Assembly: GCA_009380075.1 (NCBI GenBank)
Contig: WHSO01000015.1
Coordinates: forward strand, 1-60,208
Direction of reading: 5' to 3'
DNA from: Alphaproteobacteria bacterium
Lineage (GTDB): Bacteria > Pseudomonadota > Alphaproteobacteria > SMXQ01
Length of the DNA: 60,208 nucleotides
Shown piece after piece: positions 28,480 through 40,519 of this stretch; position 1 is the first letter of the stretch; each line of letters opens with the position of its first letter. A program made the position numbers and the translations under genes. The notes under the pieces were generated by a model that ran no database searches, had not been told where the DNA came from, and saw only the letters and a list, made by a program, of their open reading frames with translations.

Positions 28480-28574
28480 GTCCCTGCACCTTGCCCTGTT
28501 GGTTCGCGCCAATATACATCCCTGCCCGCTGCCCGTCATCAGCGCGGGATGGTAAACGACACGGGAGCCACGGG

Positions 28575-28610
28575 AAAACGGTGGGGGGCTTCTGTTGCCC
28601 GGCGCCCCCC
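28575..28610 (-). terminator. Probable terminator of the tmRNA gene
   Basis: A 7-bp G/C stem (28583-28589 with 28604-28610) with a 14-nt loop is followed on the minus strand by ACCG and four T residues. It lies about 20 nt beyond the tag stop codon helix, where the permuted tmRNA transcript would be expected to end. The T run is short, so it is only moderately convincing. Confidence 0.5.
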
Positions 28611-28854
28611 GGGCCGCGCTTGCTTAGTTAAGCAGCGAGTGCGTACTCGTTGTCGTTCGCACTTAGAGTTTGACCCGATAACGGCGGTATCATGCCGGGC
28701 AAAAATCCTACCTTTACCACGCGCGTCGATCCTGGTTCGCCCCCAAGGCAGGCCCTCATGGGCCGGATGGGAAGTGGTGGAGGCGCCGGGTACTGCCCCC
28801 GGGTCCGCAACGCTTATTCCATAGGACGTTTATCGCCATAGCCGCCGAGGCGGC
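28611..28854 (-). ncRNA. ssrA: tmRNA, circularly permuted two-piece form
   Basis: Rescues stalled ribosomes as tRNA-Ala mimic and short mRNA. Order on the minus strand is permuted. First comes the acceptor piece, with a T arm (stems CCGGG/CCCGG around a 7-nt loop) and CGCCTCCACCA ending at 28775. A segment of about 30 nt, removed during maturation, follows. Then the coding piece starts with GGGGGCG at 28744. The two acceptor strands form seven pairs including a third-position G-U, the AlaRS identity element. AACCAGGATCGACG follows as the D-arm analogue. The tag reads ANDNEYALAA (28660 to stop TAA at 28628), then a small GCTTA/TAAGC hairpin. Exact 5' and 3' ends of the precursor are estimates. 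Confidence 0.93.
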
Positions 28855-28860
28855 AGTGGA

Positions 28861-28889
28861 AATATAAGGACTGGGGCGCCCGATGGGAA
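28861..28889 (-). promoter_or_regulatory. Probable promoter of ssrA
   Basis: On the minus strand TATATT (28861-28866) is a good -10 box and TTCCCA (28884-28889), 17 nt upstream, a partial -35. Start would be near 28854. The site lies in the gap between ssrA and the divergent thyX. Confidence 0.5.
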
Positions 28890-34318: not shown

Positions 34319-35455
34319 ATGACCCATGACATCACCCGCGTCGAGGCCTTCGCCCTCAGCGTCCCCGTCGGCTTCGAATGGGCCGGGTCGAAGCACGTGC
34401 GCCGCAACGCGATGACCTATGTCGAGATCGAGACCGCGTCGGGGCTGGTCGGCCACGGCCTGACGGCGCTGTCGCCCGCCCCGGTGGTGGCGACGGCGAT
34501 CAATCGCGTCGCCCGCAACGCGCTCCTCGGCCTCGACGCGACGGGGCACGAGCATGTCTGGAACGTGGCGCTGTGGGCGCTCACCGCGCCGGGCCAGACG
34601 GGAATCGGGTGCAACGCGCTGTCGGCGATCGACATCGCGCTGTGGGACATCAAGGGCAAGATCGCGGAAAAGCCCATATGGGCGTTGCTGGGCGGCGCGC
34701 GCCGGCGGCTGCCGGCCTACGCGACCTGCGGCTTTTCGTTCTTCGACCGCGACCAGCTGGCGGAGGCCGGGCAACGGATGTGCGCGCAGGGCTACGACGC
34801 GCTCAAGATGCAGGTCGGGCGTCCCGGCCTCGACGCGCGCGAGGACGCCGTCGACGTCCATGCCGTGATCGACGAGGACGTGCGGCGCATCCGCTGCCTG
34901 CGCGATGCGGTCGGCGACGGAGTGGAGATCGCCATGGACGCGGGCGCGCGCCTCGACGGCGATCATGCCGCCGATCTCGCCGCCCGCGCCGCCGATCTCG
35001 GCGTCACCTTCTTCGAGGAGCCCGTCGTCGCCAACGACGTGCCTGCGATGGCGGCCCTGCGCCGGCGCGTGCCGGCGATGAAGGTCGCCTGCGGCCAGAG
35101 CGAGGGCCAGGTCTGGCGCTTTCGCGACATGATCGCGGCCAATGCCATCGACATCGTCCAGCCCAACGTGATCGTCGCCGGCGGGTTCACCGGCGCCGCG
35201 CGTGCGGCGGCGCTGGCCGTGGACGCGAATCTTCCGGTGTTCCATGGCGGCGGCGCGAGCTACCACAATGCCCATCTGCAGGCCGGGCTGGCGGCGGGTA
35301 CCGGGCTCGAGCACCAGATGAGTTCGTCGCCCGCGGCGGAAAAGGTTTTCGACGGCCTGCCGGTGTTCGCCGACGGGCACCTCGAAATGACGGACGCGCC
35401 CGGCCTCGGGTTCACCCTCAGGGACGGCGTGCTGCGGGAATTTGCCGTCGATTAA
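34319..35455 (+). CDS. Enolase-superfamily enzyme, mandelate racemase/muconate lactonizing group
   Basis: Metal-dependent enzyme of 378 residues that would abstract a proton alpha to a carboxylate. The capping domain starts MTHDITRVEAF; the barrel domain has metal-ligand candidates D207 (AMDAGARL) and E233/E234 (FFEEP), and a D278 (DIVQPN) with H309 (FHGG) pair like the mandelate racemase dyad. Two positions differ from the textbook pattern: the KxK lysine pair reads K163-M-Q165, and the third metal-ligand motif reads CGQSEG, with Gln in the usual Glu position. The upstream TRAP transporter suggests a sugar-acid or hydroxy-acid substrate. Its stop overlaps that of the convergent response regulator. 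Confidence 0.86.
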   Translation: MTHDITRVEAFALSVPVGFEWAGSKHVRRNAMTYVEIETASGLVGHGLTALSPAPVVATAINRVARNALLGLDATGHEHVWNVALWALTAPGQTGIGCNALSAIDIALWDIKGKIAEKPIWALLGGARRRLPAYATCGFSFFDRDQLAEAGQRMCAQGYDALKMQVGRPGLDAREDAVDVHAVIDEDVRRIRCLRDAVGDGVEIAMDAGARLDGDHAADLAARAADLGVTFFEEPVVANDVPAMAALRRRVPAMKVACGQSEGQVWRFRDMIAANAIDIVQPNVIVAGGFTGAARAAALAVDANLPVFHGGGASYHNAHLQAGLAAGTGLEHQMSSSPAAEKVFDGLPVFADGHLEMTDAPGLGFTLRDGVLREFAVD

Positions 35456-35922
35456 ACGGTGCCGGCGGGCGGCGGCGCGTCGCGGTCGAGATAGTGGGCG
35501 AGCCGCGATGTCGCCTTGCGGCCCGGGCTATGGCTTGCCAGCACGTGGCGGATCGTGTTGACGAACGTGGCCACCGACACCGGCTTCGCGACATAGGCGT
35601 CGCACCCGGCCGCCATCGCGGCCCGCTTGTGGAAGCGCGTCGGAAGCCCGCTGACCACGACGACCGGAATCCCTCGCTCCGGACCGTTCTTCAGCCGCCG
35701 CACCGCATCCAGGCCCGATGGGCCAGGGTCGACCACGTCGATGACGATGAGGTCGGGCCGGACGATCTTCAGGGTTTCCAGTGCCTGGTCGCCGTCGGCG
35801 GCCGTGTAGACGTCGTCGGCGGCGCAGGCGAGGAGGTCCCTGAACAGGACCCGGTTCATGACATCGCCCTCGACGAGGAGGATCCCCGTCTTGCGCCCGG
35901 TCCGTGCTTCAGCCTTTGCCAT
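35452..35922 (-). CDS. Single-domain response regulator
   Basis: 156 residues holding only a receiver domain, so output must come through protein contacts. The phospho-acceptor is D62 (LIVIDVVDPG), with S91 and K113 (AKP) as the conserved switch residues. The acidic pocket reads V-E-G-D, residues 17-20, where most receivers have two adjacent acids (E-D-D or E-D-N), so metal binding may be altered. The D+3 position, usually Met, is Asp. A basic, Pro-rich tail follows. It is last in a four-gene minus-strand run behind the barrel protein (20 nt gap), with no kinase nearby; a DivK-like link to polarity or division is possible but unproven. Confidence 0.86.
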   Translation of the reverse strand: MAKAEARTGRKTGILLVEGDVMNRVLFRDLLACAADDVYTAADGDQALETLKIVRPDLIVIDVVDPGPSGLDAVRRLKNGPERGIPVVVVSGLPTRFHKRAAMAAGCDAYVAKPVSVATFVNTIRHVLASHSPGRKATSRLAHYLDRDAPPPAGTV

Positions 35923-35942
35923 CGTCGATCACCGGTGGGGGT

Positions 35943-37619
35943 TCAGAATCCATAGCGCAGGCCGACGCCGACGTTGTGGGACGTGATCTTGCCCTGGACC
36001 GTGTCGCCGGTCACGTACTGCATGTCGTAGTCGTCGGTGGCGAAGTAGCGGTATTCGAAAAACAGGTCGAGCCGGTCGTCCAGCGCGAAGTTGACGCCGC
36101 CGCCGATCTGATAGGCGAAGACGTCGTCGTCCCCGTCCACAAGCGCCGCGCTCGGCAGTCCCCCGTCGCTCACGTTCACCCGGGCAACGCCGATGCCGCC
36201 GCCGATGAACGGCGTGACCGACTCCATAAGGCGGAAGTCCTGGAACACGTTGGCCATCATGCCGGTCATGGACAGGTGGCCCTGGCCGTCGCCCGACGTC
36301 CCGTCGAGATCGCCCATCCCGAGGAAGGTGCCGGCACCGCCGTCGCTGTTCACCGTGACGTCGCTGAAACTGTGCCGGCGGTAGAACAGCTCCGCCTCGA
36401 AGCGCGTGCCCAGATTCGACTTGTAGCCGGCGAAGAGGTTCGTCCCGCCGAGCTTTTCCAGCTCCCCCTTCACGTCGACACCCGGCGCGGTGAAGGTGCC
36501 GACGGCGTTGGCGGCGACCGACATCTGCGCGCCGACGTACCAGTTGTGCGTGCGCGAACAATCGGTGCCGGTGCCGTCCGGACAGGGGCGCCGGGCGGCC
36601 GCGACGGAGGGGGCTGCGGTTCCGGGGGAGGGGGCGGCGCCGGGTTCGTGGCTGACGAGCTCGCCGCCGACCGGCGCCGTGTCGCCCGCACCTATCGCCG
36701 GGGACGGCGCCGGCGGCAGCGCGTCGCGCGGTCCCGTTGCTGCTCCGGCGTGAGTCGCGGCCGGTGCCGGAGCCGCCGTGAGGACGGGCCGGCGTAGCGG
36801 CAGCGGAAACGACGGTGGTAGCGCGGCACGTGGCGTGGGCTTTTTCTGCACGGCGGCGGTGTCGCGTGCCGCGGGGACGGAATGGGCGGCCACCGGGTCG
36901 GGGACCGGGGTCACGTCGGATGCGGTGCCGGCGACAGACGGTACCGATGCATGCGTCTCCGGCGGCGATGGTGCGCGTACGCCGGGCGGCGGTACCGCGG
37001 TCGCCACCTCTGGAGGGCGTGGCGCAGGTTCCACGGGGACGGCCGCGGAATCAGGCTCGCGCGGGGTTGCTTCCGTCGGGGCCGGCACAGCTTCAGGGGG
37101 CGCGTTCTGGCTTAGGTTCCGGGCGTGATCCGTCGGCACTGCGGCGACGTCCGGCGGGGCGGGGACGGACTCCGACGGGGCCGGCGCCGTTTCGGCAGCC
37201 GCGGGCGCGGAATCCCGCGGGGGCAGGGCGGGTTCGGTCAGGACCGGAGCTTCGATCGATGGTGCCGGAGGCGGCTCGGTCGCTCCCGTGGCATCCTCGG
37301 GTGCGGGCGCGACGGCGACTTGCGGAATCGTATCGGCCACCAGCGCCGATGCGATCTTCCGATCGAACGTTGTCAGGGACCGCAGCGCCGATTGCAGCAC
37401 GGGAAGGCCGAGCCAGCCTGCGCTCGCCGCGTAGACCGCAAGACCGGCGAACAGAACCGCAGCGGCGGAGGACAGGATAAGGATAAACCGCCGCCGGCGA
37501 CGCCGTCTGCGCCGCGAGGGCTTGAGGTCGGGCCACGGAGGCCACCGCAGATGCCGCGCGCGTTGAACCGCGGCCTCGTAGATGGCATCGACGTCGTGTC
37601 GCCTGAGTTCTCCGGTCAT
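35943..37619 (-). CDS. Inner-membrane-anchored, Pro-rich protein with outer-membrane-like beta-barrel
   Basis: Unusual 558-residue protein. Residues 1-35 are a cytoplasmic-type head, 36-44 a run of nine arginines, and about 45-68 one hydrophobic segment (FILILSSAAAVLFAGLAVYA). About 69-357 form a Pro/Ala/Glu-rich linker, and 358-558 look like an OmpA-type eight-stranded barrel: HNWYVGAQMSV, NLFAGYKSN, RFEAELFYRRHSF, TPFIGGGIGVARV, DLFFEYRYFA and a final HNVGVGLRYGF ending in Phe. If the N-terminal segment is uncleaved, the chain would link inner and outer membranes; if cleaved, it would be an atypically long signal. Two Cys precede the barrel. It follows mipZ by 37 nt. I know no close named family for the whole. 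Confidence 0.78.
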   Translation of the reverse strand: MTGELRRHDVDAIYEAAVQRARHLRWPPWPDLKPSRRRRRRRRRFILILSSAAAVLFAGLAVYAASAGWLGLPVLQSALRSLTTFDRKIASALVADTIPQVAVAPAPEDATGATEPPPAPSIEAPVLTEPALPPRDSAPAAAETAPAPSESVPAPPDVAAVPTDHARNLSQNAPPEAVPAPTEATPREPDSAAVPVEPAPRPPEVATAVPPPGVRAPSPPETHASVPSVAGTASDVTPVPDPVAAHSVPAARDTAAVQKKPTPRAALPPSFPLPLRRPVLTAAPAPAATHAGAATGPRDALPPAPSPAIGAGDTAPVGGELVSHEPGAAPSPGTAAPSVAAARRPCPDGTGTDCSRTHNWYVGAQMSVAANAVGTFTAPGVDVKGELEKLGGTNLFAGYKSNLGTRFEAELFYRRHSFSDVTVNSDGGAGTFLGMGDLDGTSGDGQGHLSMTGMMANVFQDFRLMESVTPFIGGGIGVARVNVSDGGLPSAALVDGDDDVFAYQIGGGVNFALDDRLDLFFEYRYFATDDYDMQYVTGDTVQGKITSHNVGVGLRYGF

Positions 37620-37656
37620 CGGCCGGTCCGATCAAACCACGGCCCCCCCGCCATGA

Positions 37657-38589
37657 TCAGGGGTTCACCGCCGGAGGCCGCCCCCAGCTTTCGCCGGTCG
37701 TCTCGGACCTGGGTTCTGTCCTGCCGTAATTGCCGATTGGGGTTGTTGCCCGGGAAGGGCGGTCGTCGCCCTGCAACGTGGCCAGAAGGTCACGCATCTC
37801 CTTCAGTCCGTGCCGGAGGCCGCGGTTGGCCAGCCTGAGGACGCCACGGTCGACTCCGTCGAAGACGGTGAGACCCTGCAGGAACAGCTCGCGAAAGACG
37901 ACGCGGTCGTGAATGCCCTCGGCGAGACGGAAACCCAGACGCGGAACCAATTCTTCGAGAACCTGGGTGACCGATCGCGTGACCTTGGTGTTCACGTTCG
38001 GCAGGCGATTGAGCACCACGACCCAGCGCAGGTCGCCGATGCGCATTTCGCGCCGCTTCTCCATCATATAGAGGACGAGCTCGCTGTAGGCGCTGGGCCC
38101 GACGATCCGTTCGGCGCTTTCGTCGACCTCCACCATGGCATCGAGGTCGAGATAGCTGGGGTTGAGTGGCGTCACCAGAATGTCCGCGAAGACGTGGGCT
38201 GCGCGGCACAGGACGCTGTCGCTGCCCGGCGTGTCGACGACAATGAAGTCGGTGTCGGAAAGGCCTTCGAGCGCCGTTACCACCTGGTCGAGCTTCTCGT
38301 CTCCGCTCCTGTCTTCGGTGGCGCTGCGGGACAGCGAAACCTGCCGGTGTTGGGGCAACAGAATTTCGGGACGTTCCGCCTTGGCCCGGCGGCGGTTTTC
38401 CAGAAATCGGGACAGCGTACCCTGGCGCCCGTCGAGATCGATGCTGCCGACCCGAAATCCGGCGGCGAGGAGCCCGGCGACGATGTGGATCGCAAGCGTG
38501 GACTTGCCGGAACCGCCCTTTTCGTTGCCGAGGATGACGACCCGTGGACGCTGTCCGTTCGTGAGCCATGATTTGAGAAAGCTGTTCAT
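37657..38589 (-). CDS. mipZ: MipZ, division-plane positioning ATPase
   Basis: ParA/MinD-superfamily ATPase that in Caulobacter forms polar gradients with ParB and keeps FtsZ off the poles. 310 residues. The deviant Walker A GNEKGGSGKST (K24 and K29) is followed by MipZ-specific IDLDGRQGTLSRFLENRR. The switch region is VVDTPGSDSVLCRAAH. LNPSYLDLDAMVEVD, WVVVLNRL and the C-terminal VVFRELFLQGLTVFD block also match MipZ. A 30-40-residue tail (TTPIGNYGRTEPRSETTG) extends past the fold and may be disordered. It sits between an unrecognised protein and the envelope-spanning barrel gene, all on the minus strand. Confidence 0.9.
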   Translation of the reverse strand: MNSFLKSWLTNGQRPRVVILGNEKGGSGKSTLAIHIVAGLLAAGFRVGSIDLDGRQGTLSRFLENRRRAKAERPEILLPQHRQVSLSRSATEDRSGDEKLDQVVTALEGLSDTDFIVVDTPGSDSVLCRAAHVFADILVTPLNPSYLDLDAMVEVDESAERIVGPSAYSELVLYMMEKRREMRIGDLRWVVVLNRLPNVNTKVTRSVTQVLEELVPRLGFRLAEGIHDRVVFRELFLQGLTVFDGVDRGVLRLANRGLRHGLKEMRDLLATLQGDDRPSRATTPIGNYGRTEPRSETTGESWGRPPAVNP

Positions 38590-38699
38590 GATACGGGGAC
38601 TCCCAAAGCCCCACCGGGTGCAACGCCTGCCGGTCTCGTTTCCCTGTTCAACACCATTGACGCCTTCCCATTCTCGGCGGGCGCCGTTGCCTGCGGTCC

Positions 38700-39662
38700 C
38701 TAGTCGGCCGGCCCCATGGGCACCGACCCCGGCTCGCCGGGAATCGGCGGTGCCTTGGCGATTTCATTGAGCCGATGGCGCAACGTCTGCAGCAGTTCCT
38801 TGTCCTCGCCCGCCGCCTTGGCCTTGGCGTACCGGCCGGCCCAGTCGACCCGCTCCCCGGGGCTTGCCGCCATCCACAGTTCCCAGGAATCGAGTTCGTC
38901 GGGGGTGAGCACGAACCGGAGCCACACCGAGAACCGGACGGATGCCGGCTGCCCCGCCTCGCCGTCGACCGGATTCCAGTCGCTCAGCCCGCGCAGGATC
39001 CGGTTACCCGGAACGTGGTTGCCCGTCTCGGGCGGGGCGGGGGCAGCGCGCGCCACGGAGCCTCCGATCGGCCTGAATCCGGCGAACCCGCCCGACGCCG
39101 GAACCGGCGCTTCCCGGGGTGCGGACGTCTCGCGGGGCGTCGGTGGGGCGTCGCGGCTCGAGACGTCGCTGACGGGTCTGAATTCGGCGAGCCCGCCCGA
39201 CATGGCGGGGCGGGCGTCACGCAGCGCTGCCGCATCGCGGGCGGCTGCATCGCCGATACGCTTGAGGCGCGCGAGATCGACCTTGTCTTCCATAAGGCTG
39301 GGATCGAGCCCGCGGGTTCGTGCCGGCCTGCGTTGCGGGCCGGGCATGTCCGCGGGAGGTGACGGCGGGGCGGGCGTGATGGTTTCCGCGTCGCCGGTCG
39401 CGGCCGGCTTGCTGGTGGTGAATGAGATATACCCGAACGATGCGAGGGCGAGGATGCAGCCGCGGACGATGCCGGGCGTGAGCGCGGTGGCCTTGGCGAG
39501 TTCGGCGATCAAGGCATCGTCAAGGCCGCCGTCAAGATCGAGCACGGAAAACGCGAGAAAGATGCGGAGATCGTTCGCCGAAAGCCGTTCGTCCCGCGCC
39601 ATCTCGAGCGCTGAAGACCTGTCAATGACGTGTCTTATGTACAAGGATTCCATATCATACAT
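38700..39662 (-). CDS. Unrecognised protein with winged-helix-like N-terminus, divergent from parA
   Basis: About 320 residues, no family recognised. The first about 85 residues look helical with a helix-turn-helix-like part (LSANDLRIFLAFSVLDLDGG, ALIAELAKATALTPGIVRGC, LASFGYISF), like winged-helix replication or partition factors. A long Pro/Arg/Ala-rich middle, likely disordered, holds two similar short motifs, GGLAEFRPV and GGFAGFRPI. The C-terminal about 90 residues (RFSVWLRFVLTPDELDSWELWMAASPGERVDWAGRYAKAKAAG) are folded and helical. The frame opens at a TTG 54 nt upstream, but that stretch looks like promoter and leader; ATG at 39662 or 39653 is preferred. Head of the mipZ run; may be a ParA partner or regulator. 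Confidence 0.7.
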   Translation of the reverse strand: MYDMESLYIRHVIDRSSALEMARDERLSANDLRIFLAFSVLDLDGGLDDALIAELAKATALTPGIVRGCILALASFGYISFTTSKPAATGDAETITPAPPSPPADMPGPQRRPARTRGLDPSLMEDKVDLARLKRIGDAAARDAAALRDARPAMSGGLAEFRPVSDVSSRDAPPTPRETSAPREAPVPASGGFAGFRPIGGSVARAAPAPPETGNHVPGNRILRGLSDWNPVDGEAGQPASVRFSVWLRFVLTPDELDSWELWMAASPGERVDWAGRYAKAKAAGEDKELLQTLRHRLNEIAKAPPIPGEPGSVPMGPAD

Positions 39663-39780
39663 CTTGCATGAATGTGATGCAGCTTGTACAATATCTTGAG
39701 GAATTATGATTAACAACCCCTCAAAATATCAAGGGCTTCAATTGCTCCCACCGCGGTGGGCCGGACCTGCAAATTGAAGC
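39637..39780. promoter_or_regulatory. Palindrome-rich divergent region between parA and the unrecognised gene
   Basis: Inverted repeats: TTGTACAA at 39684-39691 with a partial copy ATGTACAA at 39637-39644; TGCAT-N7-ATGCA at 39665-39681; the perfect 14-bp palindrome CCCACCGCGGTGGG at 39747-39760, itself enclosed by 9-base arms GCTTCAATT (39735-39743) and AATTGAAGC (39772-39780). Toward the minus strand a TTGATA / CATAAT pair spaced 18 nt could be a promoter. Such density fits an operator or a partition-like binding site for one of the flanking gene products. Confidence 0.5.
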
Positions 39781-39847
39781 GGCGCGTTCGCTGGCAGCAC
39801 TCGCGCGTTACGGTTAAGATAACATTATTCGAGGGAGGGCCGAGAGC

Positions 39848-40519
39848 ATGAAATTCATCGTCGTCGCATCGCAGAAGGGTGGATGCGGAAAGACCACCCT
39901 CGCCGCCCATCTTGCCGTCGCCGCTGAGCTCGCGGGCAGCGGGCCGGTGATGCTGATCGACACCGATCCCCAGGGCACGCTGACCTATTGGTGGAAGGAA
40001 CGTTCCAGCAAGGTTCCCGGACTGATTCAACGCAACGATCTGCGCCAGTACGCCGGGGCGCCCAATCTTCTTTCGGATATCGAAAGCCTCCGCCAGTTCG
40101 GTGCCCAGTTCGTGATCATCGATACGCCTCCCGGCTTCACCAGCGAAATCGAGCAGGCGATCCAGTTCGCCGATCTCGTCGTCGTTCCGGTGCGGCCGAG
40201 CCCCCATGACCTCCGGGCCAGCGCGGCGACGGTGCAGCTTGCCAAGGAGCTCGACAAGGACACGATGTTCGTCCTCAACTCGGCCATCGTGCGCTCGCGC
40301 ATCTCGTCGGACGCGATCGTGGCGCTGTCGCAATTCGGGCCGTTGGCGCCCGTGGTCCTGCACCAGCGGCTCGACTACGCTTCGGGGATGATCGATGGTG
40401 GCACGGCCTTGGAAAACAAGCCGAATTCACTGGCTGCCGCGGAAATGAAAGCGCTTTGGAGCTTCATCGCCGATCGTCTCGAAGGGCGCATCGACATCGC
40501 CTTGCGTCAGGTCGGCTAG
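39848..40519 (+). CDS. ParA-family ATPase (short, orphan type)
   Basis: 223-residue ATPase without the N-terminal helix-turn-helix of plasmid type Ia ParA. Deviant Walker A VASQKGGCGKTT (K10 and K15), then LIDTDPQGTLTYWWKE and Walker B VIIDTPPGF. Short ParAs of this kind move cargo such as plasmids, chemoreceptor clusters or carboxysomes along the nucleoid, each with a dedicated partner. No parB gene is adjacent; the divergent unrecognised gene across a palindrome-rich gap is the natural partner candidate. A GGGAGG ribosome site precedes the ATG. It ends 6 nt from the convergent mrp stop. Confidence 0.88.
   Translation: MKFIVVASQKGGCGKTTLAAHLAVAAELAGSGPVMLIDTDPQGTLTYWWKERSSKVPGLIQRNDLRQYAGAPNLLSDIESLRQFGAQFVIIDTPPGFTSEIEQAIQFADLVVVPVRPSPHDLRASAATVQLAKELDKDTMFVLNSAIVRSRISSDAIVALSQFGPLAPVVLHQRLDYASGMIDGGTALENKPNSLAAAEMKALWSFIADRLEGRIDIALRQVG

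Follow-up and report, generated by a model that had tools for sequence, protein, structure and literature searches.

Four genes in the 60,208-nt stretch of alphaproteobacterial DNA analysed here (the window), which encode a small ParA, a two-domain adaptor, a MipZ-type ATPase, and a single-domain receiver, constitute a real, selectively kept module that is inherited as a unit next to mrp and hflKC. Because the module has MipZ- and DivK-type parts, we infer, tentatively, that it could be a lineage-specific ParA/MipZ system acting on division-site placement or cell-cycle signalling, a function that seems to us quite possible. An earlier note on this DNA had suggested a system that positions the division site or a polar structure relative to the envelope. 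The positioning idea is carried forward by the conserved module and its MipZ- and DivK-type parts, which point to division or the cell cycle, whereas the envelope link falls away. New beyond that note are the status of the module MipZ as the only MipZ of the genomes tested, the apparent DivK paralogy of the receiver, and a short basic motif beside ParA relatives elsewhere.

A module inherited as a unit beside mrp-hflKC

Open reading frame calls recovered all five genes of the locus at the positions and on the strands where the earlier note had put them, with coding-like codon-position G+C in 5/5, and the arrangement it described, four minus-strand genes separated by gaps of 20, 37, and 110 nt and facing a divergent ParA gene, was confirmed. 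The families it had named also hold in Pfam: the receiver (35452..35922, minus strand) matches Response_reg (6.8e-16), the barrel protein (35943..37619, minus strand) OMP_b-brl (7.7e-10), the 310-aa ATPase (37657..38589, minus strand) MipZ (6.5e-73), and the 223-aa ParA (39848..40519, plus strand) AAA_31/CbiA. No Pfam family, ribbon-helix-helix (RHH) included, matches the remaining 317-aa protein (38700..39653, minus strand), which the note had left unrecognised and which we call the adaptor, and Pfam finds no ParB domain in any module protein. Elsewhere in the window, ARAGORN predicts a tmRNA gene at 28537-28869 (minus strand; starred, tag ANDNEYALAA).

A search with the window ParA returned orthologs in four genomes of a second genus (g4) of the family, with MipZ nearby on the opposite strand. 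Gene order in the second genus is thyX, receiver (minus), MipZ (minus), adaptor (minus), ParA (plus), mrp (minus), hflK (plus), and hflC (plus), with each of four contigs (L009, L010, L011, and L012) covering the whole or part of it and L011 stopping within MipZ. Of the 11 family genomes, 5 have window-type ParA, adaptor, and MipZ together and the other 6 have none of the three, in a sample of mostly fragmented, MAG-like assemblies where the distribution rests on few genomes. In four module-less genomes (G002, G005, G006, and G007) mrp lies directly beside thyX with nothing in between, and in module-less G001, which belongs to the genus of the window, just one 161-aa ORF separates mrp from the MLE gene. 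These empty sites, together with the second-genus order, place the module site beside mrp in two genera. The 161-aa ORF of G001 (L210:6502-6987) occupies the exact module site of the window.

A third lineage carries a related arrangement in a setting unrelated to that of the window. On contig JAUVWK010000092 ('Alphaproteobacteria bacterium isolate CSMAG_1188', hereafter L076), ParA is divergent from a 131-aa adaptor relative that is followed by MipZ; there is no receiver next to this MipZ and no barrel in the module. Simple Nei-Gojobori counts indicate purifying selection, with dN/dS <0.55 in all four module genes and 0.08-0.19 for ParA between relatives. That the grouping is more than coincidence, as the earlier note had proposed, is borne out for ParA, adaptor, MipZ, and receiver, whose neighbourhood and order are conserved in relatives; the barrel, its fifth member, is missing there. 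Mere neighbours with unrelated jobs would be the hardest explanation to credit. It could appeal to a sample of only 11 family genomes, mostly MAG-like assemblies, but would have to accommodate an order kept across two genera, at adaptor identities down to ~30%, and a third lineage that keeps ParA, adaptor, and MipZ in a different genomic setting.

In the barrel protein, a basic N-terminus and a single hydrophobic segment (residues 45-66) precede a linker of ~280 residues with 23% Ala and 22% Pro and a C-terminal OMP barrel (residues 358-558). As a trans-envelope part of the module, which is how the earlier note had read it, the protein does not survive comparison: no barrel lies between MipZ and the receiver gene in L009, L010, or L012, where the gap is <100 nt, or in L076, and the window's barrel is most like the OmpA-type barrels of the family. 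Those relatives have a C-terminal OmpA-like domain and are encoded elsewhere, one of them in the window's own genome (C102). Co-occurrence with MipZ, expected of both the barrel and the adaptor, is seen for the adaptor, whose profile matches the identical 5/11 family genomes as the MipZ profile, and fails for the barrel, which is absent from the readable relative modules. The fuller idea, that the barrel is a working part tying the positioning ATPases to the outer membrane, could draw on its place in the same operon-like run (20- and 37-nt gaps) and on its combination of basic/hydrophobic N-terminal segment, long Ala/Pro linker, and OMP_b-brl domain. However, neither L076 nor any readable family copy has it, its closest family relatives are ordinary OmpA-type proteins, and its N-terminal segment could be a long signal peptide, which leaves this idea very improbable. 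Judged by these sequence relationships, the barrel is an OmpA-type local passenger inserted only in the window's version of the module, with no conserved role.

The adaptor and the family of its ParA

An AlphaFold2 model of the adaptor, computed with six sequences, predicts a winged-helix-like domain at the N-terminus (residues 13-79; 39417..39617, minus strand; pLDDT ~80-89) and, beyond a disordered middle, a helical C-terminal domain modelled with confidence (residues 228-300; 38754..38972, minus strand; pLDDT ~90) and containing an invariant WLRFVL core. Adaptor orthologs share 29-34% identity. A Foldseek search of the PDB found weak likeness to Lrp/AsnC/MarR winged helices (E ~0.8) and no match with E <0.7. 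The L076 homolog, which was located via the MipZ search, clearly shares only the WLRFVL domain with the adaptor, and the winged-helix domain is absent from it. Across 385 class genomes, an adaptor profile built without this homolog matched the window and gave two marginal matches only.

The adaptor most likely starts at ATG 39653, not at TTG 39716 of a longer ORF, because the latter is upstream of a conserved promoter-like pair assigned to the minus-strand operon (39688..39716, minus strand). In the window this pair would comprise a -35 TTGTTA (39711-39716), a 17-nt spacer, and a -10 TATTGT (39688-39693). A -35-like hexamer (TTGTTA or TTGCAG) followed after 17 nt by TATTGT also occurs in 4/4 second-genus copies, and in all five loci the pair stands 41-43 nt before the adaptor ATG. 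The divergent intergenic region as a whole (39654..39847) holds two modest inverted repeats, 39691-39701/39719-39729 and 39735-39743/39772-39780. Its earlier description as palindrome-rich is accurate in that one exact 9-nt pair (equal to two 8-mers) is present against 0.17 expected, but overstated in that the excess over shuffles is only modest (P ~0.04). The 8-mer ATATTGTA also occurs in L076, where it lies 137 nt upstream; it is AT-rich and was not relied on.

The window ParA has intact motifs (deviant Walker A KGGCGKT, DTDPQ, and IDTPPG) and no N-terminal HTH. Its second-genus orthologs are 60-65% identical and form a clade with it at 100/100 support; the ParA tree leaves the placement of the L076 ParA unresolved. 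By sequence, this protein belongs to a class-wide family of small ParAs whose neighbours carry a short basic motif, LLARKGxA. In the form [LIMVF][LFVIM][AVS]RKGxA, the motif is found on a nearby ORF in 20/30 loci with ParA relatives, which partly overlap the loci on which it was defined, and never occurs in the 231,109 residues of other ORFs that served as background. Loci of this family are L013, L015, L016, L018, L019, L021-L023, L107, L113, and L181-L207. One of them lies in the window's own genome (G000:C26, L013:10605-11111), and the motif is absent at the window ParA locus itself (L208). The adaptor N-terminus (LIARDG/LLARDS) bears some likeness to LLARKG, but over too short a stretch for kinship to be claimed.

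Partners that bear the motif are either RHH-like, on weak Pfam matches and in some cases by eye only, or SPOR proteins (40-55 bits), and the SPOR-type ParAs cluster in part in the ParA tree (83/93). In genus g2 of the family, the genes after a ParA relative encode first a LARKG-TM-SPOR protein and then a DivK-like receiver, also with LARKG. This g2 operon (L016:9274-11438; L176:1-985; L014) carries one motif on septal-type and signalling receiver proteins and links ParA, DivK, and septum independently of the module. Basic N-terminal peptides that activate ParA-type ATPases occur grafted on different interaction domains (PMC7993993), and by analogy LLARKG may be such a ParA-activating peptide. 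At L107:2990-5944 and in L113, both from uncultured Kiloniellales, a MipZ gene lies ~1.4 kb from a LARKG-type ParA locus, in convergent orientation, so that MipZ adjoins this ParA family in a further group as well.

A small ParA without an N-terminal HTH, a divergent winged-helix-like gene, an AT-rich gap with inverted repeats, and the RHH-like partners of many ParA relatives would all suit a chromosomal type Ib-like partition locus, in which ParA and adaptor act on the intergenic repeats while MipZ and receiver are riders. Such a locus is nonetheless improbable here: the genome has a normal chromosomal parA-parB on contig C119 (L025), recognised by sequence, the gap contains no iterated centromere-like sites, the L076 adaptor has no winged helix, and MipZ co-inherits as tightly as ParA.

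MipZ and the DivK-type receiver

The window MipZ matches PF09140 at 245 bits against a cut-off of 20.7 (domain positions 1-258/262) and the Caulobacter MipZ structure 2xj4 at 2e-47 (phmmer). Residues K13, G14, K18, and D42, which are required for dimerisation and hydrolysis (PMC3355305), are identical in all module MipZ copies compared, and R221, a conserved surface position of canonical MipZ, is kept. R185 is replaced in the window and second-genus MipZs and is Arg in 86/87 of the other MipZs compared; the basic residue at 196 is replaced in the same proteins and is basic in 82/87 others. With R196A, Caulobacter MipZ is impaired in binding to DNA and its ParB-associated foci are weak (PMC7229837). 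Contacts with FtsZ, ParB, or DNA may therefore differ in the window and second genus, while the L076 MipZ retains R185 and K/R196. The L076 protein falls together with the module MipZs in the tree (92/85), where those of the window and second genus sit on a long branch. A candidate binding peptide, AISFEN[W/F]xP, is conserved after the MipZ domain in L009, L010, and L012 and is weakly echoed in the window MipZ as GESWGRPP.

Each module genome tested (those of the window and L076, and G008) has the module MipZ as its sole MipZ, with no other above 50 bits, which favours a retained division role. No MinC turned up in the family, and 8/8 genomes tested have FtsZ. Six family members (G001-G003 and G005-G007) have neither a detectable MipZ nor MinC; G001, G002, and G005, the ones tested for it, do have FtsZ. 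As all six also lack the module, it cannot be a division regulator that the family as a whole requires. Outside the module, L178:7637-9994 (G017:C308) encodes a protein of 785 aa whose N-terminal domain is MipZ-like but very divergent; MinC and two canonical MipZs are found in the same genome.

The same observations bear on a different reading, in which the cargo that the module places is unrelated to division (a pole, chemotaxis, or other protein cluster, or the receiver itself) and MipZ was drawn away from FtsZ to serve as a second switch on the nucleoid. Loss of the conserved surface positions R185 and K/R196 and the long branch in the window and g4, the varied neighbours of the ParA family elsewhere (SPOR and DivK-like proteins included), and behaviour as an accessory trait missing from 6/11 family genomes are all in keeping with it. 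Yet no recognisable flagellar, chemotaxis, or carboxysome gene adjoins any copy, and the module MipZ is the sole MipZ of these genomes. We regard a non-division cargo as unlikely, if still a serious contender.

The receiver is, to judge from its nearest relatives and a comparison of residues rather than a tree, a DivK paralog. Its nearest non-module relatives are canonical DivK (then PleD) and the g2 DivK-like receiver, and it shares ~37-47% identity with DivK, the AGCDAYVAKPxSV region being common to both. The canonical divK-pleD of the window's genome lies elsewhere (G000:C14, L175), and the module receiver is not beside pleD. The window receiver keeps the phosphorylatable Asp and the conserved Lys, and its Mg site reads VEGD, with Gly for the second acidic residue, compared with VEDD/VEDN; the second-genus receivers have VIEDD, with the acidic pair intact. 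Given the Gly at the Mg site, the window branch of the receiver may be losing phosphorylation control.

Proposed role and relation to known systems

MipZ localisation is known mainly through ParB in Caulobacter. For a role in division or the cell cycle, we envisage that ParA and MipZ would both cycle on the nucleoid, with the adaptor taking the place that ParB holds in Caulobacter. The adaptor would bind DNA through its winged-helix domain, possibly at its own promoter region, and touch ParA and/or MipZ via its conserved C-terminal domain and basic N-terminus, a contact that could localise or stimulate one or both ATPases. Through the DivK-like receiver, the system's state would be coupled to the cell cycle, and the resulting gradient would limit FtsZ or place pole- or septum-linked cargo. 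In its most specific form the hypothesis is a self-contained, two-ATPase division-site system, in which a MipZ uncoupled from ParB was captured by a dedicated ParA, a new adaptor with winged-helix and helical domains, and a DivK-type receiver, and which represents one branch of an apparently undescribed, class-wide ParA family with LLARKGxA as an activating peptide grafted onto DNA-binding, septal peptidoglycan-binding (SPOR), and receiver domains. We consider this version rather doubtful and offer it as speculation. A lineage whose sole MipZ shares its locus with another ParA, an adaptor, and a DivK-type receiver would reveal how division-site regulation is rewired, and lends itself to direct genetic testing. 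One motif on DNA-binding-like, septal, and signalling domains, beside members of one ParA family, provides a model for the evolution of ParA cargo specificity that can be tested.

The earlier note knew of no described system with this set of genes, and searches of the open-access literature turned up no account of a ParA next to MipZ and a DivK-like receiver. Dedicated ParA proteins with an adjacent adaptor gene are a feature that the module shares with McdAB, PpfA-TlpT, and ParC (PMC10241942); unlike these, it has no adjoining cargo operon and carries MipZ and a DivK-like receiver instead. It resembles type Ib partition systems (ParF-ParG, delta-omega) in its small ParA and in the RHH-like partners of class relatives, but its own partner is winged-helix-like and without the LARKG motif, and there are no iterons. 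ParABS differs in that no parB stands next to the module ParA, and DivK in that the alpha4 segment (FAMKGDEE) is replaced in the module receiver, the window copy also being without the second acidic residue. PomXYZ of Myxococcus (PMC7993993), which places the division site, similarly combines a ParA/MinD ATPase with non-ParB partners, whereas the module has two different ATPases, one of them MipZ-type, plus a receiver (PomX and PomY were compared by Pfam only). Finally, the MipZ-ParB-FtsZ gradient of Caulobacter has in common with the module a MipZ-family ATPase with its switch residues kept, in a genome with FtsZ and chromosomal ParAB. Unlike in Caulobacter, mipZ here is fixed beside a second ParA, an adaptor, and a DivK-like receiver, and in the window and g4 its product is changed at R185 and K/R196.
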